Assembly: GCA_021813325.1 (NCBI GenBank)
Contig: JAKALA010000027.1
Span: 1-47,773, forward strand
Reading direction: 5' to 3'
Origin: a bacterium
Lineage (GTDB): Bacteria; Verrucomicrobiota; Verrucomicrobiia; Limisphaerales; UBA11358
DNA: 47,773 nucleotides
The translations under genes and the position numbers were made by a program. Shown here in pieces: positions 9,843 through 30,135 of this stretch. Within the stretch, counting starts at the first letter, position 1. Every line of letters starts with the position of its first letter. The notes beneath the pieces are model-generated. The model had not been told where the DNA came from. It saw only the letters and a program-made list of their open reading frames with translations, and did no database searches.

Positions 9843-10523
9843 ATGACGACACTGCTCATCGCCACCCGCAACGCGCATAAAGTTGGGGAAATTCAGGCCA
9901 TCTTAGGCACCTCATTCCGTTGTCTAACGCTGAAAGCGTTTCCCGAGGCTCCCGCCGTGGTGGAAGATACCGCTACGTTTGCCGGCAATGCCGCCAAAAA
10001 GGCGGTGGAACTTGCCCAGTGGCTTTCGGATCGTGGCGGTCAACATTCCGCCGGCGTGGATTTTGTGCTGGCCGACGATTCGGGGTTGGAGGTGGACGCC
10101 TTGGATGGCGCGCCGGGCGTGCATTCGGCCCGTTTCGCCGCGCTGGACCAGGCGGAAAATTCCCAGGACGCGGATAACAACGCCAAATTGCTGCGGCTGT
10201 TGAACGATGTGCCTGCGGAAAAGCGCACCGGGCGATTCCGCTGTGTCATTGCCCTGGCGCCGGTGGCAAAGGATCGTGTCGAAGCGGCTTCCCCGGTTTG
10301 CTATGCCGACGAATTTGCCGCCGAACTGTTTGACGGGGCGTGCGAAGGCCGGATTCAATTTTCTTCCAGCGGACAGGGCGGTTTTGGCTACGATCCACTG
10401 TTTGTGCCGGATGGTTTTAGCCAGTCCTTTGCCGAACTGGGCGAAACAGTGAAAAATGGCCTGAGCCATCGCGCCAAGGCGTTGGCCAAACTGAAGGAGT
10501 TCTTCGGTCGTAACAGAACGTAG
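9843..10523 (+). CDS. rdgB: XTP/dITP diphosphatase (non-canonical purine NTP pyrophosphatase)
   Basis: 226 aa from the ATG at 9843, which gives the canonical start MTTLLIATRNAHKVGEI. Family motifs follow: ADDSGLEVDALDGAPGVHSA, GFGYDPLFVPDG and the late SFAELGETVKNGLSHRAKAL. The enzyme hydrolyses ITP, dITP and XTP to monophosphates, keeping deaminated purines out of DNA and RNA. An in-frame ATG 45 bases upstream would add an unconserved leader and is rejected. The gene converges with the agmatine deiminase gene, 22 bases apart. Confidence 0.95.
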   Translation: MTTLLIATRNAHKVGEIQAILGTSFRCLTLKAFPEAPAVVEDTATFAGNAAKKAVELAQWLSDRGGQHSAGVDFVLADDSGLEVDALDGAPGVHSARFAALDQAENSQDADNNAKLLRLLNDVPAEKRTGRFRCVIALAPVAKDRVEAASPVCYADEFAAELFDGACEGRIQFSSSGQGGFGYDPLFVPDGFSQSFAELGETVKNGLSHRAKALAKLKEFFGRNRT

Positions 10524-10545
10524 GCTCGGCTGGCCAAATTGGATT

Positions 10546-11655
10546 TTATACCGGCTGCTGCTGCGTGAGGCAATGGAGCGAGCCAAAACCCCAGACCAAG
10601 TCCACGGCATGAATGCCAACGACCGGACGGTCCCGGAACAATTCGCCCAAGATGCCCAACGCGACGCGGTCATGGGGATCGTTGAAGGTCGGGACCATCA
10701 CGGCGGCGTTGCAGATGTAGAAATTCGCGTAACTGGCCGGCAGGCGCACGCCATCGAAATACAGGGGCGCCGGCATGGGAAGTTCGATGACTTCAGGCTT
10801 TGAGCCGTCTTCGAGTCGCAGATCCTTGATGCGCTCCCAATTTTCGGCCAGCGGCTTGTAATTTTCGTCTTTGGAATTTTTTTCCTTCACCAGCACCAGC
10901 GTTTGGGGATTCACAAAGCGGCAAATATCATCGATGTGTCCGTGCGTATCATCACCTTTCGGGCCTTTGGCCAGCCAGAAGATGTTTTTCACGCCCAGAA
11001 AACTTTTCAGCGTGGTTTCAATCTCAGCTTGGCCGAGACCGGGATTGCGCACCTGGATTTTGGGGTTCAGATAGCATTCTTCGGTGGAAAGCAAAGTGCC
11101 ACGCCCATTCAGTTCAATGCCGCCACCTTCAATGACAAATGGCCGGACGTTGTATTGGGCGTGAAACAGCTTTTTGCCCAGCAGTTGCGCGGCGGTTTCC
11201 GGAACCTTCGTGTCTTTCTGCCAGTTGTCGTATTTGGCCCAGCCGTTGAAATGAAAATGCACGATGGCGGTTTCGGCTTTGCGTTTGCGGGTTTCCGGCT
11301 TGCGGACAAAGATCGGTCCCGTATCGCGGGTCCAACCGCGGTTGGTGCGGTGCGTGACAAACTTAATTTTACGCAGATCCACCCCCGCGTGTTTGAACAC
11401 CCGGCGGGCAAATGCCTCATCCTGTTTGTGGCGGACAATGAGACGGACATTTTCGCCGGCGGAGATTTTACGGACCATTTCGCCATAAACCCATGGGATC
11501 ACCTCGAATTTTCCCGGCCAGTCACTGGCGTTGTGCGGCCAGCCCAGCCAGGTGGCTTCGTGTTTTTCCCATTCGGCGGGCATGGCGTAGCCAAGGGCGG
11601 CGGGCGGCGTGGTGAACGAAAATTTTGCGGTCGGCATAAAGATCGCGCGCAGCAT
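10546..11655 (-). CDS. aguA: Agmatine deiminase / peptidyl-arginine deiminase family protein
   Basis: 369 aa; an alternative Met lies six codons in (11637). The N-terminus AMPAEWEKHEATWLGWPHNA is typical of agmatine deiminases (PAD_porph family). Other family blocks are RDTGPIF and GDDTHGHIDDICRFVNP (His/Asp catalytic pair). The C-terminal GSLHCLTQQQP carries the nucleophile Cys362. The reaction converts agmatine to N-carbamoylputrescine plus ammonia, a step from arginine to putrescine. It is divergent (146 bp) from the deoxyhypusine-synthase-like gene, which also belongs to polyamine chemistry. No N-carbamoylputrescine amidase is in the window. Confidence 0.9.
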   Translation of the reverse strand: MLRAIFMPTAKFSFTTPPAALGYAMPAEWEKHEATWLGWPHNASDWPGKFEVIPWVYGEMVRKISAGENVRLIVRHKQDEAFARRVFKHAGVDLRKIKFVTHRTNRGWTRDTGPIFVRKPETRKRKAETAIVHFHFNGWAKYDNWQKDTKVPETAAQLLGKKLFHAQYNVRPFVIEGGGIELNGRGTLLSTEECYLNPKIQVRNPGLGQAEIETTLKSFLGVKNIFWLAKGPKGDDTHGHIDDICRFVNPQTLVLVKEKNSKDENYKPLAENWERIKDLRLEDGSKPEVIELPMPAPLYFDGVRLPASYANFYICNAAVMVPTFNDPHDRVALGILGELFRDRPVVGIHAVDLVWGFGSLHCLTQQQPV

Positions 11656-21784: not shown

Positions 21785-22717
21785 TTAGGCTTTTTCGCCG
21801 CCCGCCAGGATCGTTTGAAAATGCGGCGGCTGCTCTTCGGCGGCGACGATGCTGATTTCGATTTTTTTGAAACCGGCTTCCTCCAGCCAGCGATTCAAAT
21901 CGCTTTCGGCAAAGCCGAGCCAGCGGTCGCCGTAGAGTTCATGCGCCTTCTCGAAGTTGTGTTTGAGCAGGTCGAGAATCATGATTTGTCCGCCGGGTTT
22001 CAAAATTTTCTGAGCGCTTGTCAGGGCGGCCGCCGGATCTTCCGCGTGATGCAAGGCCTGGCTCAAAATCACCAGATCGACGCTGTTGGCATCCAGCGGC
22101 GGATGCTGCAAATCGCCCTGGCGAAATTCCAGATTCTTCAACCCGTTCTTCCTCGCCTTGGCCGCACCGAATTCAACGATCTTCTCCGAGTTGTCCACGG
22201 CGATGACTTTCCTGCAACGGCGCGCGAGCAATTCGCTCAACAAGCCCTCACCCGCGCCCAAGTCGGCGACGGCAATGCTCGGCAAGATTCTCAACAGCAA
22301 ATGCCCGAACGCCTGCCACGAGCGGCCCGGCCCATAGACGCGGTCAAAGCGTCCGGCAATCTGATTGAAATAGACCTGCGCTTGTTCCTTCCGGCGGGCG
22401 AGCACGCGCTTGAGGTTGATCTGGTCGTGGGAATGTTCCGGCAGTTCCTGCGCGCCGCGAATCGCAAGTTGGATGAATTCCGCCGCGACCTGGTCCGCGT
22501 GTTGGTTGAGCTTGTAGAACGTCCGCTTGCCCTCGCGCCGCGAGACGACCAGTTTGCAGTCCGCCAGCAAGCCGAGATGCGTGGAGATGCGCGATTGGCC
22601 GAGGCGCGTAATCTCCTGCAGTTCGTTCACGGACAGTTCATCGCGCTCCAGCAGCGCGACGATGCGGAGACGCGTCGGGTCCGAGAGGGCGCGCAATGAT
22701 TTCAGGGTGGAGGACAT
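21785..22717 (-). CDS. sahR: SahR-like regulator: ArsR winged helix fused to a SAM-methyltransferase-type domain
   Basis: 310 aa. Residues 1-75 form an ArsR-type winged helix ([20 protein letters not shown], recognition helix [13 protein letters not shown], wing [13 protein letters not shown]). It lacks the Cys pair of metal-sensing ArsR proteins. After a linker (80-145), residues 149-310 are a class I methyltransferase fold with motif [10 protein letters not shown] (150-158), an acidic residue at VIAVD, and [14 protein letters not shown]. Published SahR proteins of Proteobacteria have this design, use the methyltransferase-like domain to sense S-adenosylhomocysteine and repress metK, ahcY and methionine genes. 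Here the gene diverges from metK with ahcY following, which fits well. Assignment to SahR is by architecture and context; it could retain true methyltransferase activity. Confidence 0.82.
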
Positions 22718-22756
22718 GATTTTGTTCCCGCGCCAGATTTTTATTCAGGAAACCGT

Positions 22757-22802
22757 TTGACGCATCTGCAAATTTTTATATCATCAAATCTTGATACGTC
22801 AA
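22757..22802. promoter_or_regulatory. Overlapping divergent promoters of sahR and metK around a palindromic operator
   Basis: A perfect inverted repeat ATCAA-ATC-TTGAT lies at 22783-22795. On the minus strand TTGACG (complement of 22797-22802) and TATAAA (complement of 22775-22780) are 16 bases apart, a good sigma70 promoter for sahR with the palindrome inside its spacer. On the plus strand TTGACG (22757-22762) and TATCAT (22779-22784) are also 16 apart, for metK, with the palindrome overlapping and following the -10. A dimeric ArsR-type protein bound here would block both promoters. Seen directly: repeat and boxes; operator role inferred. Confidence 0.65.
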
Positions 22803-22831
22803 TATGTTGTTGGCGTGACGCACACAAAATT

Positions 22832-24004
22832 ATGAGCAACCGTTACATCTTCTCTTCCGAGTCCGTGGGCGAAGGCCATCCGGACAAAGTCGCCGATACC
22901 ATTTCCGATGCCGTGCTCGACGCGTGTCTGGCCCAGGATAAATTTTCCCGCGTCGCCTGCGAAACCTATGTGAAATCCAACATCGCCATCGTCGGCGGTG
23001 AGATCACCACCCAGGCCAAGCTGGATTTCGTCGCGCTCGCCCGCCAGGCCATCCGCGAAATCGGCTATGTGAACGACGACGACGTGTTTCATGCCGACAA
23101 GGTGTTCGTCAATGTCATCGTCACCCAGCAATCGCCCGACATCGCGCAAGGCGTGGACGCGCGCAAAGCCAAAGGCAAGAAGACCGCCAAGCAGGGCGCG
23201 GGCGATCAAGGTTTGATGTTTGGTTACGCGAGCAACGAAACGCCCGAGCTGATGCCCGCGCCGATCATGTTCGCGCACCGTCTCGGCCGCGAACTGACCA
23301 AGATTCGCAAGAGCGGCAAAGGTCCGGCCTGGCTGCGCCCCGACGCGAAGTCGCAGGTTTCCGTCATTTATGAAAACGGCAAGCCCGTCGCCATTTCCAA
23401 CGTCGTCATCTCCACGCAACATGCGGCGGATGTTGAACACGCCGAGATCGAGGAGTTCTGCATCGAGAACGTCGTCAAGAAGGTTCTCCCCGCGAAGTTG
23501 CTCACGAAGCAAACCGAGTTTTTGATCAATCCCACCGGCCGGTTCGTCGTCGGCGGACCGCAGGGCGACACCGGTTTGACCGGCCGCAAGATCATTGTGG
23601 ACACCTACGGCGGCATGGGGCGGCATGGCGGCGGCGCGTTCTCCGGCAAGGATCCGACGAAGGTGGATCGCAGCGCCGCCTACATGGGCCGCTGGGTTGC
23701 CAAAAACATTGTGGCGGCCAAACTCGCAGACAAATGTGAAATCCAGTTTGCCTACGCCATCGGACATCCTGACCCGGTCAGCGTGCATGTGGACACGTTC
23801 GGCACCGCGAAGGTCGCCGATGCCCAGATTCTCAAAGCCGTCGGCAAAGTGTTCAGCTTCCAGCCGGCGGACATCATTGACCAATTGAACCTTCGTCGCC
23901 CGATCTATTCGAAGACGACCAACTACGGTCACTTCGGCAAGAGCGACAAGGATCTCACGTGGGAAGCGACCAACAAAGTTGAGGCGTTGCTGAAAGCGAT
24001 TTGA
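22832..24004 (+). CDS. metK: S-adenosylmethionine synthetase
   Basis: 390 aa from the ATG at 22832. Canonical start [20 protein letters not shown], the ATP-binding [12 protein letters not shown], the signature [20 protein letters not shown] with its P-loop-like GGGAFSGKD, and [16 protein letters not shown]. An insertion of basic residues ([10 protein letters not shown]) before GAGDQG is a mild variation. It makes SAM from methionine and ATP. Expression is likely from the divergent promoter region next to the sahR-like gene; the 5' leader would be under 50 bases, too short for a SAM riboswitch. Next on the strand are the four-helix-bundle gene and ahcY. Confidence 0.97.
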
Positions 24005-24007
24005 TGA

Positions 24008-24071
24008 AGGTTTAAGGGCAAAGGTTTCAGGTTTCAGGAAAAAGTCCTGGCCTGGAACCTTGCCTTGAACC
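24008..24071. repeat. REP-like imperfect palindrome / left inverted repeat of the four-helix cassette
   Basis: Starts four bases after the metK stop. Bases 24009-24031 (begins GGTTTAAGGGC) can pair with 24051-24071 (CCTGGAACC...GAACC) in a stem of about 21 pairs with two bulges and a few G-U pairs. Separately, 24008-24031 matches the reverse complement of 24450-24473 at 21 of 24 positions, framing the next gene. Confidence 0.65.
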
Positions 24072-24097
24072 AAAAACTTTAACCCTTGGACCGTTAG

Positions 24098-24454
24098 GTG
24101 GCTTATCAATCCTTTGAAGATTTGGAAGTTTGGAAGCGCGCGTGCAGACTGGCAGTTGAAGTCACAAAAGCGTTTTCAAAGTCTAAGGATTACATCTTCA
24201 AAGATCAGACGATTCGTGCGGCTGTCTCGATCCCGTCTAATATTGCTGAAGGGTATGAACGTGACCGCCGCTTGGATGTGATTCGTTTTCTGCGTATCGC
24301 CAAAGGCTCTGCCGCCGAACTTCGCACGCAATGTTACCTTGCGTTGAAGCTGGACCTTTTAGCTGGCGATAAATGCCAGTCGTTCATCCAGGAATGCAAA
24401 GAAATCTCCGCCATGCTGCAAGGTTTGATCCGCGCCCGCAGCCGCACCACCTGA
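24098..24454 (+). CDS. Four-helix bundle protein (23S rRNA intervening-sequence protein family)
   Basis: 118 aa with a GTG start at 24098. The pattern YQSFEDLEVWKRACRLAVEV, then IRAAVSIPSNIAEGYERD and LRIAKGSAAELRTQCYLA is the signature of the S23/IVP four-helix bundle family, originally found in intervening sequences within 23S rRNA genes and related to the Avd protein of diversity-generating retroelements. Such proteins form pentameric barrels and may bind nucleic acid; their role is not settled. It lies between metK and ahcY and is bounded by inverted repeats that run right up to its ends. The stop codon TGA lies inside the right repeat. Confidence 0.9.
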   Translation: MAYQSFEDLEVWKRACRLAVEVTKAFSKSKDYIFKDQTIRAAVSIPSNIAEGYERDRRLDVIRFLRIAKGSAAELRTQCYLALKLDLLAGDKCQSFIQECKEISAMLQGLIRARSRTT

Positions 24455-24473
24455 AACCTTAACCCTTTAACCT
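24450..24473. repeat. Right inverted repeat of the four-helix cassette
   Basis: Begins CCTGAAACCTTAACCC and is the reverse complement of 24008-24031 with three mismatches. It contains the stop codon of the four-helix gene and is followed by another partial copy (CCTGAAACCT at 24471-24480), ten bases before the ahcY start. Confidence 0.65.
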
Positions 24474-24489
24474 GAAACCTATTTAACTT

Positions 24490-25992
24490 ATGCCTAAAGC
24501 CTCCAAATCCAAAATTACCGCCGTGCTCGCCGAAGTCAGCGCCGCGCTGCCTAACCTCGCCCAATTTGCCGCCCAAACGCCGGCGGGCAAAGACTACATC
24601 GTTCGCGATTTCGCGCTCGCCGATTGGGGCCGCAAGGAAATTGCCATTGCCGAGCACGAAATGCCCGGTTTGATGTCCGTGCGCAAAAAATACGCCAAGA
24701 CCAAGCCGCTCAAAGGCGTGCGCGTCACCGGTTCGTTGCACATGACGATCCAGACCGCCGTGCTCATTGAAACACTCGTCGCCCTTGGCGCGAACGTGCG
24801 CTGGGCCTCGTGCAACATCTTTTCCACGCAGGATCACGCCGCCTCGGCCATCGCCGCCACCGGCACGCCGGTGTTCGCTTGGAAGGGCGAGACGCTTGAG
24901 GAATATTGGGAGCTCACGCTCAAGGCAATTTTGTTCCCCGGCGACCAAGGTCCGCAACTCGTGGTGGATGATGGCGGCGATGTGACGCTGCTCATTCACA
25001 AAGGTTACGAACTCGAAAAAGGTTCCAAGTGGGCCTACGAAAACAAGGGCGACAGCCACGAAGTTTCCGTGGTCAAAGCCCTGCTTCGCCGACTTGCCAA
25101 GGAAAAGCCCGGCATCTGGACCAAGATCGTGAAGGATTGGCGCGGTGTTTCCGAAGAGACGACCACCGGCGTGCATCGCCTGTATCAGCTCGCGGAACAG
25201 GGCAAATTGCTCGTGCCCGCCATCAACGTCAACGACTCCGTCACCAAGTCCAAGTTCGACAACCTTTATGGCTGCCGCGAATCGCTGGCCGACGGCATCA
25301 AGCGCGCTACCGATGTCATGCTCGCGGGCAAAGTTGCCGTCGTTTGCGGTTACGGCGACGTGGGCAAAGGTTGCGCGCATTCGCTGCGTTCCTATGGTTC
25401 ACGCGTCATTGTCACGGAAATTGACCCGATCAACGCGCTTCAGGCCGCCATGGAAGGTTTCGAGGTCAACACCGTGGAAAGCACGTTGGGTATTGGCGAC
25501 ATTTACGTCACCACCACCGGCAACTGCGACATCATCACTGCCGAGCACATGCTCAAGATGAAGGATCAGGCCATCGTGTGTAACATCGGTCACTTCGACA
25601 ACGAAATCCAAGTGGACCGCTTGAAAAAGGTCAAAGGCTTGCGCATCGAAAATATCAAGCCGCAATACGATCGTTACTATCTGCCCGGCGGCAAGAGCAT
25701 CTACCTGCTCGCCGAAGGTCGTCTCGTGAATCTGGGTTGCGCCACGGGCCATCCGAGCTTCGTGATGAGCAACAGCTTCACGAATCAGACGCTTGCCCAA
25801 ATTGATCTCTGGGCCAACAAGGATAAATACAAGAAAACGGTCTATCGTCTGCCCAAGAAACTGGACGAAGAAGTCGCGCGGTTGCATTTGGAAAAGATTG
25901 GCGTGAAGCTGACCAAACTCTCCAAGAAGCAGGCGGATTATCTGGGCGTGCCGATGGAAGGCCCCTACAAGCCGGAACATTATCGCTACTAA
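24490..25992 (+). CDS. ahcY: Adenosylhomocysteinase (SAH hydrolase)
   Basis: 500 aa, the longer bacterial form. Family blocks: [53 protein letters not shown]-binding GYGDVGKG (287-294), and the C-terminal [10 protein letters not shown] with KPEHYRY, whose Lys/Tyr reach the partner's NAD site. It reversibly splits SAH into adenosine and homocysteine, relieving product inhibition of methyltransferases. No own operator palindrome was found between the four-helix gene and the ATG, so it probably depends on the metK promoter across the inserted cassette, or on an unseen promoter. A perfect terminator follows. Confidence 0.97.
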
Positions 25993-26007
25993 GCGAACTC
26001 AAATCTG

Positions 26008-26039
26008 AAAGGCGAACGGAAATTTCCGTTCGCCTTTTT
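26008..26039 (+). terminator. Rho-independent terminator after ahcY
   Basis: A 15-bp perfect inverted repeat (26008-26022 with 26023-26037, arm AAAGGCGAACGGAAA) ends in a run of five T at 26035-26039, 16 bases after the ahcY stop. The central AAATTT probably forms the loop. The minus-strand version also ends in three T, so it may serve the converging NTF2-like gene weakly. Confidence 0.92.
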
Positions 26040-26120
26040 GTTTCAACCACGAAAGCCAACGGGTGCCGCGCGAAGCCACCTTGTCGTTCGACCACGGGAA
26101 AGGACGGCTTTGCGACTCGG

Positions 26121-26618
26121 TCAGGTCAAGGTCTTCACGGTTTCGGCCCGGGAAATCAGCCAACTGCCATCGATTTTGCGCAGTTGAAAGTGCATTTCCT
26201 CGGCCCGCATGTCGCGGCTGCCGCCCATCAAAACCCGAGTGGTGCAGTTAACGTCGGCCGTCAGCTTGTCGGGTGCGACGCGGATGCTCACATCCGAAAA
26301 TTCGAGCTTCAATGCGCTCAACATGGTCAGGCCGCTGCGGGCGGCGTCCCGGATTTCATCGCGTCCGTTCAGCGTGCGTGCGGTTTCGCCGCTCGCGTCC
26401 AGGCTGACCTGGGCATCCACGGTGAACATGCCGGTTAAATGGCTGATCTTGAGGGCGCGGCTGATGTTGCTGTCATGCGTGGTAAACGTCGCCGTGGTGG
26501 CCAGGCGGGCCATCTGGCGTTGCACCAGTTTTTCCGGGCTGGGGCAGCAAAGGCCCCACAGCCAATAGCCGAGCCCCAGGCCGGCCAGCAGCAGCAACAG
26601 GCGAAAGACCTTTTTCAT
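26121..26618 (-). CDS. Membrane-anchored NTF2-like protein of unknown function
   Basis: 165 aa. It has an N-terminal hydrophobic anchor or signal (MKKVFRLLLLLAGLGLGYWL), then a roughly 120-residue domain (helical start PEKLVQRQMARLA, then strands ending HFQLRKIDGSWLISRAETV). The final strand pattern of 'F-L-R-K-x-DGSWLI' is typical of NTF2/SnoaL-like domains. No catalytic residues can be named. It overlaps the signal peptidase gene by 4 bases (ATGA), so the two are translated together. Function is not recognisable from sequence. Confidence 0.7.
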   Translation of the reverse strand: MKKVFRLLLLLAGLGLGYWLWGLCCPSPEKLVQRQMARLATTATFTTHDSNISRALKISHLTGMFTVDAQVSLDASGETARTLNGRDEIRDAARSGLTMLSALKLEFSDVSIRVAPDKLTADVNCTTRVLMGGSRDMRAEEMHFQLRKIDGSWLISRAETVKTLT

Positions 26619-27136
26619 AAAAATAATTTGCCTACGATGCGATCGCGCTCCGCCCGCCCTTGGGTGTGAAACTCAAAAGGCATGGAACGATTGTCGCCCA
26701 CCACGTAATACTGGTTGTTGCTGCAAACGATGGGGCCGTGCTCCCAATCGCATTCAAACTTCACGTAAGGTTCAGCCAGCCGCTTGCCGTCGATGTAAGC
26801 GTGGCCCTCGTGGAACGTGAGTGTTTCGCCCGGCAGCGCGATGATGCGTTTCATCAGCATGACGTGCGGGCCGGCGAGACGAACCGAGACAATATCCCCG
26901 CGCTGCGGCTCGTGCCAGCGATAGGCCAGGCAGTTGACGCAATCAAACTCGCCGTCGTGCAAGGTGGGCTGCATGGAAATGCCCTCGATGCGGATGGGCA
27001 GCAGCACGTATTTGAACGTGACGAAACAAAACGTCACCAGGGCAAGAATGCGAATCAGCGTCGCTTTGGGGCGGCGACCGATAAACGCCACTTGCAGCCA
27101 GTGAGGCTGGACCGCCTGGTCATTTGCACTCAACAC
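26615..27136 (-). CDS. lepB: Signal peptidase I
   Basis: 173 aa from a GTG at 27136 (no ATG is available before the catalytic site). One membrane anchor (about 27-47) precedes IRIEGISMQPTL with catalytic Ser54; the general base is Lys96 in VMLMKRIIALPGE. The later boxes AYIDGKRLAEPYV and YYVVGDNR (box E, GDNRxxS) are present. It cleaves signal peptides of exported proteins in the inner membrane. Small for the family but complete. Its stop overlaps the start of the NTF2-like gene by 4 bases. It is divergent from leuS (161 bp). Confidence 0.93.
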   Translation of the reverse strand: MLSANDQAVQPHWLQVAFIGRRPKATLIRILALVTFCFVTFKYVLLPIRIEGISMQPTLHDGEFDCVNCLAYRWHEPQRGDIVSVRLAGPHVMLMKRIIALPGETLTFHEGHAYIDGKRLAEPYVKFECDWEHGPIVCSNNQYYVVGDNRSMPFEFHTQGRAERDRIVGKLFL

Positions 27137-27297: not shown

Positions 27298-30135
27298 ATG
27301 GCCAGCAGTCGCCGACAATATCCGTTTCACCTGATTGAACCCAAGTGGCAGCAAGCCTGGGATGCTCAACAGACCTTTCGCGCTTGGAATCCCGGGGAGG
27401 TCCTTGCGGACGGCCACCCATTTGCCAAACGCCATGGGCTTTCCGGCAAGGTGACCGCCACGCAGTTGCCGAAGAAGTTTTACATCCTCGACATGTTCCC
27501 GTATCCCAGCGGTGCGGGCCTGCATGTCGGCCATCCTGAAGGTTACACGGCCACGGACATTCTGGCGCGCTATCGTCGCGCGTGCGGTTTCAACGTGTTG
27601 CATCCGATGGGCTGGGACTCATTCGGTCTGCCCGCCGAGCAATACGCGGTCAAAACCGGACAGCATCCGCGCAAGACCACCGAGGCAAATATTGCCAATT
27701 TTACCCGCCAGATCAAAAGCCTCGGCTTCAGCTACGATTGGTCCCGCGAAGTCGCCACCACGGATGTGACCTATTTCAAGTGGACCCAATGGATTTTTCT
27801 CAAGCTCTACAATTCGTGGTTCAATCCCGAAACGAACCGAGCCGAGCCAATTGAAACTTTGGAATATCCTAAGGAATTGCGATTGATTTCAGATTGGAAC
27901 CAACTCATTTATGAGTCTGCACCCGGTGAAATCCTTTCAAAGGAACAGGAAAATGATTTCAAAAAAGAATTCCAAGAAGATTGGAATCGGAATCGTGAAA
28001 AGCTTCGCCGAGAGTTTCGCGATTCCAAGCGTCTCGCCTATGTCAGCGAAGCGCCGGTGAACTGGTGTCCGGAACTCGGCACCGTGCTGGCAAACGAGGA
28101 AGTTATTGACGGCAAGAGCGAGGTCGGCGGTTTCCCGGTCATCCGCAAGCCGATGCGCCAATGGATGCTGCGCATCACCGCTTACGCCGAAAAATTGCTG
28201 GCCGACCTCGACACGATTGACTGGAGCGATTCGCTCAAGGAAATGCAGCGGAACTGGATTGGCCGCAGTGAGGGCGCAGAAGTGGACTTTCAGATTGCCG
28301 ATTGCCAATTGCCAATTGCCGATTCAAAAATCCGCGTGTTCACCACCCGCCCAGACACATTGTTCGGCGCTACCTACATGGTTCTTGCCCCGGAGCATCG
28401 TTTGGTGGATGTGATTACCACCGAAGAGCAGTTGAGTGCGGTGGAAAATTATTGCGAACATACTGCCCGCAAAAGTGACCTGGAGCGCACCGAACTGGCC
28501 AAGGAAAAAACCGGCGTTTGGACCGGCGCTTATGCCATCAATCCCGTCAACGGCGAGAAGATTCCGATCTGGATTGCCGATTACGTGCTCGCCAGCTACG
28601 GCACCGGCGCAATTATGGCCGTGCCCGCGCATGACGAGCGCGACTTTGAGTTTGCCAAGAAATTCAGCCTGCCGATTATTCAGGTTGTTCAGCCGCCGGA
28701 CGCGAAGACTGACTGGCAGGGATTCTGTGAAAATGGCACCTCGGTGAACTCAGGCTTTCTTGATGGATTGCCCACCGCCGAAGCCAAAAAGAAAATCACG
28801 GCCTGGCTCGAAGAAAAAGCTCTTGGCCAGAAGACCATCAACTACAAGCTGCGCGACTGGCTGTTCAGCCGTCAGCGTTACTGGGGCGAACCGTTTCCGA
28901 TTGTTTGGAAGGTTGGCCCGGACGGCGAGTCCTATCACGAAGCGTTGCCGGAAAGTGCGCTGCCAGTTTTGCCGCCCACGTTGGAAGACTACAAGCCCAC
29001 GGCGAGCGGCGAACCGCCCTTGGCCCGCGCCAAAGAATGGCTGAACGAAGTGCCGGGTGCTGTCCGGGAAACAAACACCATGCCGCAATGGGCCGGCTCC
29101 TGCTGGTATTATCTTCGTTATCTGGATGCGAAGAATGCCGGCACGTTTGTTGGCAAAGATGCGGAGCATTACTGGATGAAATCCGGCGGTGACAAGCCGG
29201 GAGTTGACCTTTATGTCGGCGGCACGGAACACGCCGTTTTGCATCTGTTTTACGCACGGTTCTGGCACAAGGTTTTGTTTGATCTTGATTTGGTTTCCAC
29301 GGCTGAGCCGTTTTTCAAGCTCGTGAACCAAGGTCTCATTCTTGGAGAAGACGGCCAGAAGATGTCCAAGAGCCGCGGCAATGTGGTGAACCCGGATGAT
29401 ATTTTGAAGGAGTTCGGTGCGGATGCGTTCCGTCTCTACGAAATGTTCATGGGGCCGCTGGAAATGTCGAAGCCTTGGAGCACCAAGGGCGTTGAAGGCG
29501 TGTATCGCTTCCTCGGTCGTGTCTGGCGTCTGTTTGTGGATGAAAAATCCGAAACCGCATTTGAGCAGGCGGAAACCACCGCCGAGACGCAGAGTCGCGG
29601 AGAATTGCTGGATTTGATTCTGCTGGACGGAGCGATTACGGACGCCGCCGCCACGCCGGCACAGTTAAAAGCACTGCATGCGTGCATCAAGAAAGTCACG
29701 GAAGATTTGGACGGCATGCGCTTCAATACGGCCATCTCTGCCATGATGGTCTTCATCAATGAAGCGATGACGTGGCAAAACAAGCCGGTGACCGTGCTGA
29801 AGCCGTTTCTGCAATTGCTGGCGCCGTTTGCGCCGCACCTGGCGGAAGAACTTTGGGCCCGGCTGCATTCCACCTTTGGCCAGATCGCGCCTTCGCTTTC
29901 TTATGCGCCCTGGCCGAAGTTTGATCCGGCGCAATTGATTGAAAGCGAAATCGAACTGCCGGTGCAGGTGAACGGGAAATTCCGCGACACCATCAAGGTG
30001 CCCGTGGATGCGGACAACACCACAATCGAAGTGGCGGCCAAAGCCTCCGAAAAAGTTCAGACGTTTTTATCCGGCAAGACGGTGAAAAAAGTCATTATCG
30101 TGCCCAAGCGAATGGTGAACTTGATTGTGGGCTAA
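27298..30135 (+). CDS. leuS: Leucyl-tRNA synthetase
   Basis: 945 aa from the ATG at 27298. Class I signatures: HVGH (76-79) in [11 protein letters not shown] and KMSKS (688-692) in [13 protein letters not shown]. The editing (CP1) domain, [14 protein letters not shown] and a C-terminal anticodon-binding domain are in order. Three stretches look inserted relative to the usual protein: about residues 33-55 ([20 protein letters not shown]), about 197-240 with a charged helix, and about 333-345 ([13 protein letters not shown]), encoded by 7-base repeats. The first and third coincide with repeat-like DNA yet keep the frame. All catalytic motifs are intact, so the enzyme should be functional. Confidence 0.96.
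27398..27416. repeat. Short dispersed repeat, copy 2, inside leuS
   Basis: AGGTCCTTGCGGACGGCC lies in the codons for the extra N-terminal stretch of LeuRS. It shares CTTGCGGACGG with 21687-21706. Its core GTCC-TTGC-GGAC is palindromic. The +1 frame reads RGGPCGRPP, a string I remember as recurring in spurious peptides from related genomes. Confidence 0.4.
28294..28321. repeat. Four 7-bp tandem units (ATTGCCR) within leuS
   Basis: Four consecutive copies of ATTGCC plus G or A (G, A, A, G), followed by ATTC. They encode part of [13 protein letters not shown] in the editing domain. Units of 7 bases rotate the frame, so the peptide is not a simple repeat. Confidence 0.8.

Follow-up and report, generated by a model that had tools for sequence, protein, structure and literature searches.

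A gene of the S23/IVP family lies between metK and ahcY in the window, the whole stretch of 47,773 nucleotides from a member of the Verrucomicrobiota that was analyzed here, and is framed by inverted arrays of a 7-bp unit. This observation is one case of a wider pattern around S23 genes. The best explanation, which we consider probable, is a cassette in which the S23 product recognizes its cognate arrays, and which is exchanged as a unit and gives rise to gene-less derivatives. In this arrangement, the S23 gene would be bracketed by two inverted arrays of its 7-nt unit with the G-rich strand pointing inward, and the cassette would be exchanged and lost as a whole. From sequence comparison, we infer both the binding of the arrays by S23 and the movement of the cassette.

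Anatomy of the metK-ahcY cassette

All features of the locus lie on the forward strand. The upstream neighbor metK (ORF, 22832..24004) is next to ahcY (ORF, 24490..25992), the downstream neighbor, an arrangement conserved in the relatives examined. The cassette starts directly after the metK stop codon (24004). Its left arm A (24008..24038) is a G-rich heptad array with the units GGTTTAA, GGGCAAA, GGTTTCA, GGTTTCA and GG. An S23/IVP four-helix-bundle gene of 118 aa with a GTG start (24098..24454; ORF and profile matches) follows, and the right arm A' (24450..24480) is an inverted heptad array that ends 9 nt before the ahcY start at 24490. As the initial annotation had stated, the right repeat contains the stop codon of the gene (TGA, 24452-24454). 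The S23 gene and the arrays probably constitute a cassette of about 480 bp.

The complementarity of the arms was 84% over 31 nt (24008-24038 and 24450-24480), so that these terminal inverted repeats are able to form a long stem, and 88% over 25 nt (24008-24032 and 24449-24473). A hand count of 24008-24031 against 24450-24473 agreed with the 21 of 24 matching bases reported previously. The arms are inverted runs of tandem 7-bp units, a feature that was absent from the initial annotation. The arm score, defined as the best inverted match between the 250 nt upstream and the 200 nt downstream of an S23 gene (SW), was 18.5 at the window locus; scores of at least 18 were obtained in 3 of 485 shifted control windows.

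A local hairpin was predicted for the left arm together with the adjoining downstream sequence (24009..24071; -40.7 kcal/mol, z -4.6), and 0 of 200 shuffled sequences folded as well. In a single-sequence fold, most of the pairing of the left arm was with the stretch that follows it, and its pairing with the right arm was partial. The REP-like self-fold that had been attributed to the left repeat was therefore found here, but it is uncommon in the family: a local upstream hairpin was detected at 10 of 194 armed loci (a set that includes five duplicate cross-phyla loci and other non-Xanthomonadaceae loci, from a 54-row set). A regulatory leader hairpin was rejected as a general feature on this count. 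A known RNA family was also rejected as the identity of the locus, as no Rfam match was over the gathering score in 22000-27000. The ORF at 21785-22717, divergent from metK, looks by eye like a fusion of an ArsR-type regulator and a methyltransferase.

The assignment of the 118-aa product to the IVP/S23 type was confirmed by matches over the cut-off to PF05635 (114.8 bits, cut-off 33.8, E 2.6e-33) and TIGR02436 (112.8 bits, cut-off 24, E 9e-33), and NF008912 was matched with 145.5 bits (cut-off 124). An AlphaFold2 model of the protein (mean pLDDT 95.5) had the four-helix fold of solved S23 members, with 2gsc (TM 0.84-0.88) and 2rld (TM 0.80-0.83; both query-normalized) as its best PDB matches. 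Five chains are listed in each of these two entries. No catalytic domain or site is known in the S23 four-helix-bundle fold, a point against the cassette reading. A pentamer-forming S23 protein of this fold would recognize arrays of its own 7-nt unit, perhaps with one unit per subunit.

Avd of diversity-generating retroelements (DGRs) has the same fold. The chains of 4dwl matched the S23 model with a TM of about 0.70-0.79 (query-normalized), weaker by E-value than 2gsc and 2rld, and the window protein matched the DivGenRetAVD profile weakly (E 1.4e-4, below its cut-off). Further, the homology of 4DWL and 2GSC is remarked upon in the accessible part of one paper. These likenesses agree with a retroelement in which S23, as an Avd homolog, copies the cassette with a reverse transcriptase acting in trans. 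We regard such a retroelement as highly improbable: in contrast to a DGR, no reverse transcriptase was detected in the genome of the window (95% complete; 0 RVT_1 matches), and RVT_1 was not matched in 16 of the 27 S23 genomes searched, including G079 and G154, the pair with an apparently swapped cassette that is described below. The S23 dN/dS of about 0.1 is also unlike a recent mutagenic burst. Of the mobile or retro-type unit that had been suggested initially, a unit framed by special repeats, as at the other copies in the genome, was retained, whereas the retro-type part was not supported.

Period, polarity and drift of the arms

PF05635 was matched seven times in the genome of the window, six times over the cut-off. 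Inverted 7-bp arms were present at all six copies, clearly at five and weakly at L008 (13.5), each with its own unit: GGTTTMA in the window, AAAGCGG at L004 (33 of 33 bases) with variants at L005, TTGCCAA at L006 and AAAGGCT at L007. Thus, the shared flanking repeats that the initial annotation suggested testing for at other loci of the family were found as inverted heptad arms but not as a shared unit. At L009, the seventh, sub-threshold match, no clear heptad array was seen.

Dispersed arrays of the window's own unit were not found in this genome; a 12-base piece of the unit had 4 exact matches elsewhere, none of them an array, and a control pattern also had 4. Few heptad arrays without S23 were present in about 360 kb of the genome sampled with the window. 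Outside S23 loci, this sample held a compact gene-less heptad hairpin of the GTTGAAA type (L361, about 10500-10585) and two single arrays. One of the latter, an array of about 4.5 GATTGCC/AATTGCC units at 28293-28324 of the window, is in frame within the leuS ORF, has no inverted partner within 600 nt and resembles in its unit the arms of the S23 copy L006. The other (L356, 18950-18980) is a lone, partnerless TTTCCGC array that appears to lie in coding sequence; an S23 cassette whose unit is likewise TTTCCGC is located about 1.5 kb away.

The arms were compared, at an arm-score threshold of 13, with control windows of identical layout that had been shifted along each locus. Scores of at least 13 were obtained for 83 of 97 S23 genes in relatives (4 of 101 genes, too near contig ends, were left out) and for 19 of 485 shifted controls. 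Across many phyla, the corresponding numbers were 64 of 75 S23 genes and 11 of 556 controls (80 loci from one genome-collection scan, of which 5 were left out as too near contig ends). In 119 Xanthomonadaceae, 64 of 68 S23 loci reached the threshold, a count made without shifted controls. PF05635 matches occurred in 50 of 59 relatives, and the arm counts are of 30 to 40 tool-chosen loci and 60 hand-picked ones.

The arms averaged about 30 nt in length. Although they were selected on inverted pairing only and not on period, their lag-7 autocorrelation was 0.68 in relatives (z 35; 0.30 when shuffled) and 0.71 across phyla (z 30; 0.31 when shuffled), with self-match also at lag 14. G exceeded C in the left arm at 173 of 194 loci. 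The aligned units had a weak common pattern, A-G-K-G-R-Y-Y, in which only the G (0.90) and the preceding A (0.66) were strong, and contained 3.2 bits of information compared with about 2.5 in permuted units.

The sequence of the unit varied between loci, whereas the 7-bp repeat was constant. Units formed classes, with pairing within a class and mostly not between classes. In the six genomes with an occupied metK-ahcY spacer, the arms were of the types GGTTTMA, GTTTCAA/GTGTTCA, GTTTCAA/GTTGGAA and GTTTTCA, and pairing was retained. Pairing scores within and across loci were 18.8 and 12.8 at metK-ahcY, 21.9 and 14.6 at accB-accC, 18.5 and 8.8 among 60 relatives, and 21.2 and 8.5 among 60 loci across phyla. 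An arm's own partner was the best of all in 3 of 6, 4 of 13, 26 of 60 and 38 of 60 cases, respectively; it was not always the best because units fall in shared classes. A correspondence of arm class with S23 clade at accB-accC was rejected, as identity within arm classes (0.76, 19 pairs) and between them (0.72, 59 pairs) differed too little to be of use. Palindrome correction could maintain the pairing of the arms even if it had no function, which also speaks against the cassette reading.

Such drift bears on an explanation in which slippage creates the arrays as ordinary microsatellites of 7 bp and template switching keeps them complementary, with S23 genes merely tolerating or attracting them. 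Units that drift freely and arrays that are homogeneous within a locus are what slippage and correction would give, and heptanucleotides are reportedly the most frequent class of long repeat in the majority of prokaryotic genomes (a statement cited in the accessible part of PMC4679880). However, such arms were rare in shifted windows of the same loci, their inward polarity is fixed, and dispersed arrays in Xanthomonadaceae track S23 and its arm unit, as described below. We consider it quite improbable that the arrays are microsatellites of this kind.

Placement, exchange and gene-less arrays

The cassettes lie in spacers, typically just after a stop codon and near the next gene: at 93 of 136 loci, the distance from an upstream stop on the same strand to the start of the arm was within -10 to 50 nt. 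At L256 and L263, a heptad arm takes the place of the bases directly ahead of accC and no Shine-Dalgarno sequence is evident there, whereas GAGG is present at empty sites; at the filled sites, accC translation may be coupled or arm-dependent. In a Nostoc plasmid, an S23 cassette (L212, 2489-2857) lies between ribonucleotide reductase subunit genes on the strand opposite to both. At L047, L052 and L075, the cassettes lie directly after the end of apparently the same tRNA gene, and a related small ORF then follows in each; this tRNA gene end looks like another preferred address.

The position of the arrays just after stops and before starts agrees with a serious rival, in which S23 is not mobile and acts as a post-transcriptional regulator or mRNA-processing factor, with heptad arrays as its RNA targets and the dispersed arrays as its regulon. 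The arms would form a long stem that is cut by RNase III, as in the intervening sequences (IVSs) of rRNA, which would separate the neighboring cistrons or adjust their translation. The structural neighbor Avd belongs to the DGR ribonucleoprotein, the S23 protein is kept (dN/dS about 0.1) and the arrays are positionally stable, all of which fits a regulator; the replacement of the S23 gene and its arms as a block within conserved flanks (see below) does not. In the accessible part of PMC4990558, the Coxiella IVS is described with a 28-bp terminal stem that RNase III cleaves in vitro, and with heptameric repeats in tandem ahead of the S23 start. Rehm et al. (2015; PMC4692102), in the part accessible to us, described G-rich heptameric repeats, GGGAATC in Xanthomonas and GGGGA(C/T)T in Nostoc, with a preference for four units, inverted convergent pairs and positions near stops and starts, and reported that most are transcribed. 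These repeats have the same units as the S23 arms of Xanthomonadaceae and the same placement; that part of the paper treats them as G-quadruplex and names no protein, and the link to S23 is new here. However, a crude ORF rule placed both neighbors on the opposite strand at 29 of the 194 loci with arms, so the element is not always read in sense, and essential neighbors work without the cassette at empty sites. We judge the regulator with arrays as RNA targets to be a doubtful account, and the RNase III-cut stem equally so.

The presence of the cassette varied between relatives. At metK-ahcY, 30 spacers were examined, out of 53 genomes with an ahcY match. S23 was present in six, the window's included, and absent in 24; the empty site that the initial annotation had proposed to look for thus exists, and the gene is not at the same place in all relatives. 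Among the spacers without S23, that of G040 had inverted heptad arms without the gene, and by reading, 21 of the others were short and 2 had other long sequence. Repeat copies without the gene, also proposed there as a check, therefore occur at the same site in G040 but not as dispersed arrays of the window's unit in its genome. The accB-accC spacers of S23-less Xanthomonadaceae were sampled from 30 of 65 genomes (9 that have arrays, and 21 selected on size), of which accC was found in 28; 21 spacers were 6-14 nt and six were 48-338 nt in length. The 162-nt spacer of G160 had heptad arms around an apparent remnant of the S23 3' end. Filled and empty sites at the two loci differed by breaks at stop and start codons, and no target duplication was made out.

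The accB-accC cassettes of two close Xanthomonadaceae, G079 and G154, were 73% identical, with flanks of 98.3% and 98.6% identity. Identity dropped at the accB stop and recovered at the accC start, and the arms switched type from GGGATTC to GGGAATC. In this pair, S23 had a dS of 2.1 and a dN of 0.20, and accC a dS of 0.046 and a dN of 0. Replacement by a diverged cassette appears likelier here than fast change under selection, because selection-driven fast change would not raise dS so. The ratio in S23 is about 0.1, and the protein is kept by purifying selection. In the reverse case (L073 and L078), S23 was 97% identical and the flanks 82-86%. An identical 333-bp S23 was found in L047 and L049, metagenome contigs of which the latter ends nearby, with flanks without similarity. 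Movement by transposition is conjectural: a target duplication could not be established, and homologous flanks are common among similar S23 pairs. Many S23 loci thus look vertically inherited, which counts against high mobility, as does the lack of dispersed arrays of the window's own unit in its genome. Plasmid or phage carriage was rejected, being rare or absent, respectively: one query matched 34 of 72,556 plasmid records and 0 of 50,697 phage records.

We think it likely that S23 and its cognate heptad arrays are one exchangeable unit with gene-less derivatives. At a guess, complementary arrays could anneal with the help of the protein ring and be copied as templates by the replication and repair machinery of the host, which would allow S23 cassettes to be exchanged or to spread with no nuclease of their own.

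S23 was present in 54 of 119 Xanthomonadaceae. Array matches in these genomes were exact tandem GGGAATC or GGGATTC, for which reversed control patterns gave 0 to 4 per genome; the matches overlap and include the arms of S23 itself. Their median was 50 in genomes with S23 and 0 in those without. At least 50 matches were found in 28 of 54 genomes with S23 compared with 1 of 65 without, and at least 10 in 35 of 54 compared with 8 of 65. When arm units were classified by tandem GKGAWT in both S23 arms, 23 of 25 genomes with such arms had at least 10 GGGAWTC array matches, as did 12 of the 29 whose arms differ (p 1.3e-4), a strict rule under which several of the 12 (such as G064, G108, G121 and G163) carry the unit imperfectly; at least 50 were present in 21 of 25 and 7 of 29, respectively. 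Independent contrasts for 41 genomes on an accC tree, a tree of one gene, gave r 0.76 (p 7e-9), and 12 of the 13 large contrasts shared one sign. The 13 genomes with S23 in this tree all carry it at accB-accC and mostly have GGGAWTC-type arms, which favors the link; every S23-less genome with arrays was deliberately included, which is conservative. Thus, the dispersed arrays in Xanthomonadaceae are linked to S23 and to its arm unit.

An inward-facing partner was present within 700 nt at 22 of 60 dispersed arrays and an outward-facing one at 0, and no S23 gene was found in the 60 fetched loci. In one Xanthomonadaceae genome, a gene-less heptad array (L288, 1501-2186) has about 97 units. Gene-less heptad hairpins would be non-autonomous derivatives of S23 cassettes, formed by internal deletion or by spread in trans. 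This autonomous and non-autonomous reading is carried over from the family and not from the window copy, because the window's unit has no dispersed arrays.

Relation to known elements and implications

The 23S rRNA IVSs gave the S23 family its name. The window cassette resembles them in its protein family, a size of about 430-480 bp and terminal inverted repeats forming a long stem, but it lies in a protein-coding operon, between metK and ahcY and not within 23S rRNA. A scan of S23 loci with seven typed 23S motifs revealed no rRNA setting, and the single motif match was at a metK-ahcY locus. In further contrast to the IVSs, heptad arms are general to S23 genes, with a unit that varies, and gene-less arrays are tied to the presence of S23. 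On the cassette reading, the rRNA IVSs would be further cassettes of this type, with rRNA as their site. In CPR bacteria, IVP ORFs occupy several different insertion sites, spread across 16S and 23S genes, according to the accessible part of a report.

S23 cassettes also resemble RAYT genes with REP or REPIN sequences, in which a gene is flanked by short palindromic repeats and gene-bearing genomes contain many gene-less intergenic copies. Dispersed gene-less copies of the flanking repeat were found in Xanthomonadaceae but not for the window's unit. RAYTs are HUH tyrosine transposases, whereas S23 is a four-helix bundle, and the cassette contains S23 as its only gene and no such transposase. 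The sequence of a REP is conserved within a genome, whereas S23 arms keep only period and polarity. S23 genes and gene-less arrays would be akin to RAYT genes and REP sequences, although S23 is no transposase.

Other heptad arrays are on record, such as the GGGACCG repeats of Geobacter metallireducens, as given in the accessible part of the source. TAACTGA direct repeats of Beggiatoaceae, located in spacers just upstream of starts and proposed to act post-transcriptionally, resemble the A' side of some S23 arms (L136); the accessible part of that paper (PMC4679880) contains no mention of S23 by term. A link between S23 and heptad arrays was not found in the openly accessible literature searched, a scope that excluded most subscription journals and bioRxiv.

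The chances appear even that S23/IVP genes are the autonomous members of an undescribed and very widespread group of minimal elements, with ends made of inverted, freely evolving 7-nt arrays read by a pentameric, non-enzymatic protein, which seed and maintain dispersed heptanucleotide arrays and for which the rRNA IVS is one landing site. Two old puzzles, the role of IVS S23 proteins and the commonness of 7-nt tandem repeats in prokaryotes, would then perhaps have one answer. Each S23 is predicted to recognize its own arm unit, which is simple to test. If true, a protein that follows its repeat by period and polarity while the sequence drifts would represent an unusual form of nucleic-acid recognition, and the cassettes around S23 may explain the origin of many bacterial seven-base repeats.
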